DNA from: Bacillota bacterium
GTDB taxonomy: Bacteria; Bacillota; Desulfitobacteriia; Desulfitobacteriales; JAJXUE01
Length of the DNA: 50,647 bases
Assembly: GCA_021783135.1 (NCBI GenBank)
Contig: JAJXUE010000017.1
Span: 1 to 50,647, forward strand
Direction: 5' to 3'
The notes beneath the pieces are model-generated. The model had not been told where the DNA came from. It made no database searches and was given only the letters and a program-made list of their open reading frames with translations. The translations under genes were made by a program, and so were the position numbers. The stretch's first letter is position 1, and every line of letters begins with the position of its first letter. This document shows, piece by piece, positions 30,224-33,351 of this stretch.

Positions 30224-30267
30224 ACTATGAATTAAACTAAAGTGCGCGACAAACCGGATGGTTGGTG

Positions 30268-30789
30268 ATGAACATTTCTAATTATGACAAGGCTATGGAT
30301 TGCGCTTTGCGTATCCTGGCCTTTAAGATGCGAACCGAAAAGGAATTGGTTACCCGCCTAGCTAAAAAAGGGTATGAGCCGGAGATTACTTTAGAGGTAG
30401 TTGAACGCCTTAAAGACATGGGATATATTAATGATAGTGCTTATGCTGAAGCATTTGTGCGAAGTAAAGTACGGAGAACGGGCAGTCTAGGTCTGCGTTA
30501 TGAGCTTACTGATAAAGGTGTGGATAAGGATTTAGTCCGGACCGTAGTCGAAGTGAATTATCCGCCGGATCAGGAATTGGCGGCAGCATTAGAATTGGCG
30601 GAAAAAATATGGCGCCAATGCTCAGAGTGTGTACCGCGTAATTGGCAAAACCTTGCACCACAAGAACTTTACTATAAAAAGATTACAAAAACTGCAAGAA
30701 AATTGTTATCTCGAGGCTTTTCTTCCACTATTGTACACACTGTTATGCAAAAAGTTGCCCCCGAATGTACGGAAATCGTGATAAGTTAA
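30268..30789 (+). CDS. recX: RecA regulator RecX
   Basis: Small helical protein that binds RecA filaments and modulates strand exchange. 173 residues with the RecX triple-helix repeats: ALRILAFKMRTEKELVTRLAKKG, split as residues about 14-37, then RLKDMGYINDSAYAEAFV and LLSRGFSSTIVHTVM near the end. ATG at 30268 is chosen because GGATGG lies about five bases upstream. Probably cotranscribed with recA and so SOS-induced. Confidence 0.93.
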   Translation: MNISNYDKAMDCALRILAFKMRTEKELVTRLAKKGYEPEITLEVVERLKDMGYINDSAYAEAFVRSKVRRTGSLGLRYELTDKGVDKDLVRTVVEVNYPPDQELAAALELAEKIWRQCSECVPRNWQNLAPQELYYKKITKTARKLLSRGFSSTIVHTVMQKVAPECTEIVIS

Positions 30790-30797
30790 CTGCAATC

Positions 30798-30826
30798 TTG
30801 ACAGAATTTGCAAATTACATTAAAAT
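30798..30826 (+). promoter_or_regulatory. Promoter of the recX-rny intergenic RNA
   Basis: TTGACA (30798-30803), 17 bases, TAAAAT (30821-30826). It begins nine bases after recX and drives a 376-base gap with no ORF. Confidence 0.75.
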
Positions 30827-30831
30827 AGGAG

Positions 30832-31070
30832 CGAGAAGCTAGTCTAGGATTACTAATCCACAGATGCGGGTTTCTTATATATAGATTTTCAACTGGCTCC
30901 ATTTTACCTCATTCCCCAGTGGGGATAAGGTTTTAAATATTTGGGGAACGCCTTTGGACGAATAATATATAAGAATAGTTTGGGTCTACTGAGACCTGAG
31001 TTTTACTATATCCCGCTACAGACAGTTGTGGTTAGTTTAATGAGAGAGATCGGCTTTGCCGGTCTTTTTT
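30832..31070 (+). ncRNA. Structured RNA, 6S-RNA-like fold
   Basis: A transcript unit of about 240 nt with its own promoter and terminator and no ORF. Pairings found by hand: a closing stem 30849-30862 with 31027-31041 (13 bp with bulges); GCGGG 30866-30870 with CCCGC 31012-31016; an 11-bp stem 30872-30882 with 30965-30975; an apical hairpin TCCCC/GGGGA around 30913-30925. On the 3' side of the large internal loop is a small hairpin GGTCT-ACTG-AGACC (30983-30996). A long rod with a central bubble that carries a small hairpin in its 3' strand is the architecture of 6S RNA, which sequesters sigma-A polymerase. An unnamed sRNA or an rny leader with attenuator is the alternative. Confidence 0.6.
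31047..31070 (+). terminator. Terminator of the intergenic RNA
   Basis: AGATCGGC/GCCGGTCT stem (one G-U pair) with a TTT loop, followed by a T run to 31070. From 31071 to 31165 I see only the rny leader, with no clear separate promoter. Confidence 0.88.
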
Positions 31071-31165
31071 GCGCTATGCTGGAAAGGACCAATGCATGCC
31101 TTATTAGCTTCTGCTGATTTCAAACAAAATTATAACGAGTAAAAAAACTACGAGGAGGTGAAAAA

Positions 31166-32713
31166 ATGGATGGTACTGTCATTTTAGTAGTTATACTTAC
31201 CTTGGTGGGCTTAGCCATCGGCGTTACAGTTGGTTATATTGTGCGTAAAGGAACTTCAGAAAAAACCATTGGCAGCGCTGAAGAAGAAGCAAAGCGGATT
31301 GTCGACTCGGCCCAAAAAGATGCAGAGTCCAAAAAACGCGAGGCTGTGGTGGCAGCCAAGGAAGAGGTAATGCAACTTCGCAACGACGTTGAGAAGGAGA
31401 CACGCGAACGTCGTTCGGAACTGCAGCGGCTTGAGAGACGTTTAGTCCAAAAAGAGGAATCTCTTGACCGCAAGGTGGAGACTTTAGAACGCAAAGAGGA
31501 AGGTCTGCACCGCAAAGAATCAGATGTTGATAAAATGCGTGACGATCTCCAGGCACTTATTGCTAAACAACAGACGGAACTAGAGAGATTATCGGGGCTG
31601 ACTTCAGAAGAAGCCAGGCAGCTTTTGCTTTCCAATATCGAGGACGAAATTAAGCACGAAGCTGCAATAATGATTAAAGAAATTGAAACGCAAGCCAAGG
31701 AAGAAGCCGATAAAAGGGCGAAGAATATTATCTCCCAAGCTATTCAGCGTTGTGCGGCAGATCATGTGGCTGAAACCACTGTTTCAGTTGTAGCTTTGCC
31801 AAGTGACGAAATGAAGGGGAGAATCATTGGTCGAGAAGGACGCAATATTCGAACCTTGGAAACTTTGACCGGCATAGATTTGATTATTGACGATACCCCG
31901 GAAGCAGTTATTCTCTCGGGCTTTGATCCTATCCGGCGCGAGGTGGCTAGGGTTGCGTTGGAAAAACTGATTCTCGATGGTCGCATTCATCCCGCACGGA
32001 TCGAAGAAATGGTGGAGAAGGCTCAAAAAGAAGTAGATCAAAAAATCCGTGAAGAAGGGGAACAAGCCACTTTCGAAACGGGAGTACACGGTCTGCATCC
32101 GGAAATCGTACGTTTATTGGGTCGTTTGAAGTTTAGAACAAGTTATGGCCAGAATGTCTTAAAGCATTCCATCGAAGTATCCCACTTAGCCGGCTTGATG
32201 GCGGCCGAACTGGGAGCAGACGTTCAGCTCGCTAAGCGCGCCGGTCTCTTGCATGACTTGGGTAAAGCCGTCGACCATGATACGGAAGGAACCCACGTGC
32301 AACTCGGTGCTGATGTGGCACGTAAATATAAGGAATCGCCGGAAGTTGTGCATGCTATTGCTGCGCACCACGGTGACGAAGAACCTACTACCATAGAAGC
32401 TGTCTTAGTAGCTGCAGGTGATGCTGTGTCCGCAGCACGACCGGGCGCTAGGCGTGAAACACTTGAATCCTACATTAAGCGGTTGAAGAAACTTGAGGAA
32501 ATTGCGGATACCTTTGAAGGGGTTGAAAAGGCGTTTGCCATTCAAGCTGGACGGGAAATCAGAATTATGGTTAAACCGGATAAGATTGATGACTCCATGT
32601 CCGCCAAAGTTGCCCGTGAAATTTCTAAGCGTATTGAGGATGAACTTGAATATCCCGGACAAATTAAAGTAGTAGTGATTCGTGAAACACGAGCAGTTGA
32701 TTATGCTAAGTAA
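31166..32713 (+). CDS. rny: Ribonuclease Y
   Basis: Membrane-anchored endoribonuclease that initiates mRNA decay. 515 residues: a transmembrane helix (about 5-25), a long coiled coil rich in Glu/Lys/Arg (about 30-200), a KH RNA-binding domain ([17 protein letters not shown], about 215-232) and an HD phosphohydrolase domain with the HD pair in [12 protein letters not shown] (about 365). All elements are intact. GAGGAGG precedes ATG. A terminator follows. The adjacent ymdB-type gene is a common neighbour. Confidence 0.97.
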
Positions 32714-32838: not shown

Positions 32839-33351
32839 ATGAGCTTTAAGTATAAGTCAGGGGGCCAAGTATCCGACAGTGTGGGTCTATTGGTTTCCAT
32901 TCTTGTCCGATATCCTGAAGTAGGTACCGTTAACGTAGAGCAAGATGATCAAATTTTGCGCTTAACATTCTTTTTGTTTAAAGGTATTAACAGCATAGAG
33001 GATCATCGAGAGACAATAATCGACTCTTTGCAGCTGTTTAACCAGTTCGAAGGTCGTGTTTGCCGTGTATGCGACCTAAGCCTCCACCTGGAAGAAGGAC
33101 TTATCAGCATTGAGGTAAAGCGCGATATTGAAACCTTTACCCAAAATGAACTTAACCTGATAGTGGACTTACTGAGTCAATTCTTCCCGGACTCGCTAGT
33201 GGCAGACCCTTCCGAGGATATGCCGGAGGAGGAACTATTAATGCAGGAAGAAATGATCCGTCATATGCTCGATAATATCAGGAGCAAACGCTTGGATAAG
33301 AATGTAGTTGCGTTGCGTGAGGACGGTCGGGTTCTGGTGTTCAATAAGTAG
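32839..33351 (+). CDS. Conserved-looking soluble protein of unknown function
   Basis: A 170-residue protein that I do not recognise. It has no signal peptide or membrane helix. The N-terminal half alternates strands and helices (GLLVSILVRYPEVGTVNVEQ; LRLTFFLFKG) and contains two close cysteines (GRVCRVCDLSL, CxxC). The C-terminal third is strongly acidic and helical (DPSEDMPEEELLMQEEMIRHML), ending in VVALREDGRVLVFNK. AAGGTGG lies before ATG. Its position between rny and the YmdB-type gene suggests a housekeeping role. Function unknown. Confidence 0.82.
   Translation: MSFKYKSGGQVSDSVGLLVSILVRYPEVGTVNVEQDDQILRLTFFLFKGINSIEDHRETIIDSLQLFNQFEGRVCRVCDLSLHLEEGLISIEVKRDIETFTQNELNLIVDLLSQFFPDSLVADPSEDMPEEELLMQEEMIRHMLDNIRSKRLDKNVVALREDGRVLVFNK

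Follow-up and report, generated by a model that had tools for sequence, protein, structure and literature searches.

What is the function of the structured element that lies between recX and rny in the window, the 50,647-nt stretch of Bacillota DNA analyzed here? RNase Y, encoded by rny, is a main bacterial RNA-cutting enzyme; in B. subtilis, and probably in many other Bacillota, most mRNA decay begins with it. The original prediction described a near-consensus promoter, a structured gap without open reading frames and a strong terminator between the two genes, all of which we confirmed, and it took the unit to be a free-standing RNA with 6S-like architecture. Our analyses point elsewhere. On comparative sequence grounds we propose, with moderate confidence, that the element forms the 5' leader of rny, where it acts as a transcription attenuator whose likely input is RNase Y.

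All features of the locus are on the forward strand. The upstream neighbor is recX (30262-30789; Pfam RecX domains), which does not always accompany the element. A near-consensus promoter of the sigma-70/sigma-A type (TTGACA-17-TAAAAT, 30798-30826; 11/12 matches) places the predicted transcription start at about 30832-30834. The 5' end of the leader, GAGAAGCTAGTCT (30833-30845), is invariant in three genomes of the window's family, and folds of the window RNA and complementarity across families identify it as the putative antiterminator strand. Its predicted partner is the 5' arm and loop of an intrinsic terminator (GAGAGAGATCGGC-TTT-GCCGGTCTTTTTT, 31042-31070), the stem of which has 13 pairs, the outer ones extending into the U tract. 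Both the start and the stop of the leader are predicted from sequence. The gene after the leader is rny (31166-32713; Pfam RNase_Y_N, KH_1, and HD); promoter, leader, and intrinsic terminator thus stand directly before one gene, as expected of an attenuator, and among the 37 genes in the window only rny has this arrangement. The recX-rny gap contains no open reading frame of at least 100 aa. A leader peptide was considered and rejected, as no ribosome site precedes the short ATG frame at about 30864, which related families lack. Downstream, the interval from rny to the ymdB homologue contains a reading frame of 170 aa (32839-33351) that had no Pfam match.

The approximately 230 nt between promoter and terminator fold strongly (-70.3 kcal/mol, z -3.2). 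Dinucleotide shuffles reached -55.9 +/- 4.5 kcal/mol, and 0/200 were as good. The minimum-energy fold reproduces the stems originally drawn by hand to within a few nucleotides. Predicted helix P1 (30852-30863/31026-31036) closes the domain and has its 3' strand just before the terminator. Inside it are P2 (GCGGG 30866-30870/CCCGC 31012-31016) and the AU-rich P3 (30873-30882/30965-30974), which has a homologous helix in related genera and whose 5' strand lies within the most conserved sequence motif, GGUUUCUUAUAUAUAGAUU. A small hairpin (30982-30997, pairing at about 30982-30987/30992-30997) occupies the 3' side. The "large internal loop" that had suggested 6S RNA is one-sided: its 5' strand is just 2 nt long and its 3' side bears the hairpin. 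With so short a 5' strand, the feature is better described as a junction from which a hairpin projects, and the symmetric bubble that resembles an open promoter is missing.

We extracted the recX-rny gap from about 70 genomes of the order. Most of these gaps contain a promoter, a body of approximately 150-240 nt with a motif like GGUUUUCUUAUAGAUUU, and a terminator, and nearly all the rny upstream regions examined carry the same promoter. The closing helix, the AU-rich helix, the inner helices, and the 3' hairpin are shared by 23 Desulfosporosinus-type sequences, in which 91% of the cells are paired under the structure versus 29-53% when it is slid along the alignment, and 38 cells are changed on both sides versus 11 +/- 4 in shuffles. 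At the equivalent place of the small hairpin in related genera, all five pairs vary on both sides. A covariance model built from these 23 sequences (R1) was run blind on 74 genomes and matched in 61 of them at an E-value of 1 or better, nearly always once per genome and adjoining rny; a second family, which had not contributed to the training set, is among those matched. The window family is not scored by R1. We nevertheless judge from its position, promoter, topology, and shared sequence that the window element belongs with the R1 leaders. Its own genome holds one copy. Plain blastn found homology in only two genomes, both of the same family, and a third match covered the terminator alone. 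The fold is kept in the three genomes of the window family, which are so alike that only one pair changes on both sides. Covariation was found in related genera and through comparison across families, and the window family itself contributes nothing useful to it.

In one genus of the order (loci L056, L057, and L058), the rny leader looks very different: it contains two AU-repeat strands (ATATATATAT ... GTATATATA) and does not clearly match R1. At Desulfosporosinus-type loci (e.g., L014), the first bases of the leader also form a local hairpin, CAGAGACCUGUCUCUG, which would compete with the antiterminator. Together with the bases beside the -10 element, this hairpin is part of a long near-perfect palindrome.

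An attenuator also calls for conserved pairing that competes with the terminator. We compared the duplex energy of native partners with that of partners exchanged among families, a design that scores only lineage-specific complementarity. For P1, leader windows from position 20 were paired with the 40 nt that immediately precede the terminator. Native P1 partners were clearly more complementary (-16.3 versus -10.2 +/- 0.6 swapped, z -10.7, 31 families), as were the first 30 nt of the leader and the terminator 5' arm plus loop (-8.4 versus -6.6 +/- 0.3 kcal/mol swapped, z -6, 41 families); because the families share ancestry, the swap tests do not amount to independent samples, although the control segments gave the expected outcome. 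Segments of the leader that start at 30-120 gave no signal against the terminator arm (z -0.9 to +1.2), which argues that relatedness alone does not create the signal at the 5' end. The signal stays when leaders carrying GAAAC are removed (z -4.6). It is weaker at fixed register, where antiterminator pairing shows only a modest excess (across families, p 0.007; within the order, p 0.017), since an invariant consensus, GAAACU with AGUUUC, accounts for much of the pairing. Folds with at least five antiterminator pairs formed in 30 of the 41 native leaders versus 58% of the swapped combinations.

Folds of the growing window transcript, which compare energies only, without kinetics, place the antiterminator (30835-30840/31052-31057 plus 30842-30845/31047-31050) in the minimum-energy state when the 3' end is at 31055-31062. 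The terminator takes over at 31066, and the full-length transcript favors the terminator fold. The read-through fold can thus form first and the stop fold is the more stable, as an attenuator requires.

We infer from these pairings that the two folds compete in cells, in the following way. RNA polymerase would start at the 30798-30826 promoter, and the middle of the leader would fold into the junction domain closed by P1, which would set the first ~12 nt of the transcript beside the terminator. Pairing of the 5' end with the emerging 5' arm and loop of the terminator would then form the antiterminator and allow read-through into rny. If the 5' strand were unavailable (cleaved, displaced, or with P1 unformed), the terminator would form and only the ~235-nt leader would be made. 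The likeliest input is RNase Y itself: excess enzyme would cut or unfold the leader and turn rny down, so that the purpose of the attenuator is probably RNase Y autoregulation. As the antiterminator strand is at the extreme 5' end, termination would be sensitive to 5' cuts of the RNase Y type. The choice of signal draws on B. subtilis, in which RNase Y lowers its own mRNA, partly by cleavage that falls mostly within the first 50 nt of the leader and at the beginning of the reading frame (PMC10303841).

The preference of the complete transcript for the terminator fold could also mean constant partial termination without regulation. An unregulated partial terminator might set the rny level or end transcripts coming from recA-recX, with the fold protecting or processing the rny messenger through RNase cleavage. 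This account, which we consider fairly unlikely, gains from the usual presence of recX or recA upstream and from the B. subtilis rny leader, which works through cleavage and not termination (PMC10303841). It leaves unexplained why the first 30 nt alone match the terminator arm across families, and it does not account for a conserved terminator sequence that is specific to rny. The terminator of rny leaders often reads CCGAGUUUC-N-ACUCGG. The pattern CCGAGTTN{2,5}CTCGG (CCGAGTT..CTCGG) occurs about once per genome, and most of the genomes searched have one of their hits in the rny leader. We rejected a generic terminator sequence on account of this rarity.

The leader also recurs outside the order. 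Among the regions upstream of rny from 60 genomes, mostly of different families, a promoter followed by a terminator and then rny was found in 38/60 families, versus 0.3% in dinucleotide shuffles; at two heliobacterial loci (one in this sample), the scan returned an internal hairpin and the terminator is also present. No terminator was recognised before rny in the other 22/60 families, and in many Bacilli and Negativicutes the promoter, at times together with the hairpin, is present but no clear terminator is. recX was undetected directly upstream in 27 of the 85 loci with the architecture; there the neighbor is often recA, where recognisable by eye, and otherwise other genes. Since the architecture persists at loci with no recX directly upstream, the element tracks rny. 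The "free-standing" unit of the original prediction has its own promoter and terminator, but its independence is doubtful. Leader length across the phylum ranges from about 12 to 300 nt. Some families keep the terminator behind a leader of only ~12-40 nt, and some of the shortest leaders have no room for P1. Within the limits of predicted transcripts, these comparisons establish the architecture, its linkage to rny, P1, and the complementarity between 5' end and terminator.

Individual loci illustrate the range. In three from other families (L163, L179, and L213), ~12-18 nt separate the predicted start from the terminator, which is still of the CCGAG type; at two of them, L179 and L213, it is complementary to the leader 5' end through AGAAC/GUUCU. 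In Lucifera, a Bacillota MAG, and Sporomusa (L102, L103, and L104), a GCCGAG...CTCGGC hairpin follows the promoter upstream of rny and is succeeded by CTTTACCC, with no U tract, so the hairpin seems to be conserved there without terminator function.

This distribution bears on whether the element could be a separate, abundant small RNA acting in trans, with its own promoter and full termination, and with rny as merely the next gene, read by leakage. The strong promoter and terminator, the elaborate fold, and the conservation of the body over the order would all suit such an RNA. We find it unlikely: the element always adjoins rny, even when recX is not the neighbor, and the ~12-40-nt leaders of some families leave no RNA to act in trans. 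A terminator complementary to its own 5' end likewise fits an rny leader and attenuator better than a separate trans-acting RNA.

A further reading keeps the leader in cis and changes its input. In B. subtilis, RNA polymerase binds rny mRNA (~64-fold enriched) for reasons that are unexplained, and an equally unexplained genetic link connects rny with rpoB/rpoC expression (PMC11077062). By analogy, the rny leader might bind RNA polymerase and so set read-through, matching the supply of the decay enzyme to the amount of polymerase. We regard this as improbable; if true, the leader would be a cis-acting, 6S-like sensor linking RNA synthesis with RNA decay.

That leaves the 6S identity itself. The Rfam 6S model (RF00013) has no match at gathering in the window and none at an E-value of 10 on 30600-31200, and it did not match 20 related loci at an E-value of 1. 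Instead, the genome carries a canonical 6S RNA on another contig (G000:C59:3698-3877; 111.8 bits versus a gathering score of 46.4), as do most genomes of the order (6S RNA in 69/74). Several 6S matches were seen in some genomes (e.g., G035, G013, and G003), with six in G035, which exceeds the pair known from B. subtilis. We therefore rejected the 6S identity, given the missing model match, the 6S RNA elsewhere, the lack of a symmetric bubble, and the linkage to rny; what remains supported is a structured RNA that is conserved and has a promoter and terminator of its own. For the same reasons it is very improbable that the element is a second, diverged 6S RNA acting in trans on RNA polymerase by binding it, despite the long-range closing helix with a small 3'-side hairpin and the precedent of B. 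subtilis, which has two 6S RNAs (6S-1 and 6S-2) and whose polymerase also binds rny mRNA (PMC11077062). No other Rfam 15 family, including raiA, the T-box, and riboswitches, reached its gathering score at this locus when the window was searched, nor did any in the gap plus 36 related loci searched at permissive E-values. A match to a togavirus frameshift element (E 0.0025, 27.6 bits versus a gathering score of 40) covered the terminator hairpin only and was discarded.

The favored reading, an attenuator in the rny leader, apparently describes an arrangement not reported before. Neither rny nor recX is named in the main text of three published searches for new bacterial RNAs (PMC8632094, PMC11109978, and PMC6429828); judged by that text, an earlier listing under another name is possible. 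A terminator switch before rny in dozens of families would offer a concrete, testable control point, and it bears on how the level of RNase Y is matched to transcription.

Among known systems, 6S RNA (RF00013) shares with the element a length of ~200 nt, a long-range closing helix, and its own promoter and terminator, but the element lacks a model match and a symmetric bubble, is linked to rny, and coexists with a 6S RNA in the same genome. The E. coli rne 5' UTR, through which RNase E is autoregulated and which PMC10303841 also mentions, is likewise structured and precedes the gene of the main decay endonuclease; it directs mRNA cleavage rather than transcription termination, and RNase E belongs to a different enzyme family. 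The B. subtilis rny 5' UTR is the leader of the same gene, with a sigma-A promoter, a length of 164 nt, and an important role for the first 50 nt, but its control is reported to be by mRNA cleavage, and no terminator is reported (PMC10303841); the likeness is drawn from the published description. Other Bacillota attenuators (riboswitches, T-box, and protein-dependent leaders) similarly place an intrinsic terminator and a competing long-range pairing before the controlled gene. The rny element differs from them in matching no Rfam family and in using the very 5' end of the transcript as its predicted antiterminator strand. It would thus be an attenuator whose antiterminator strand is the part of the RNA most exposed to RNA-decay enzymes.
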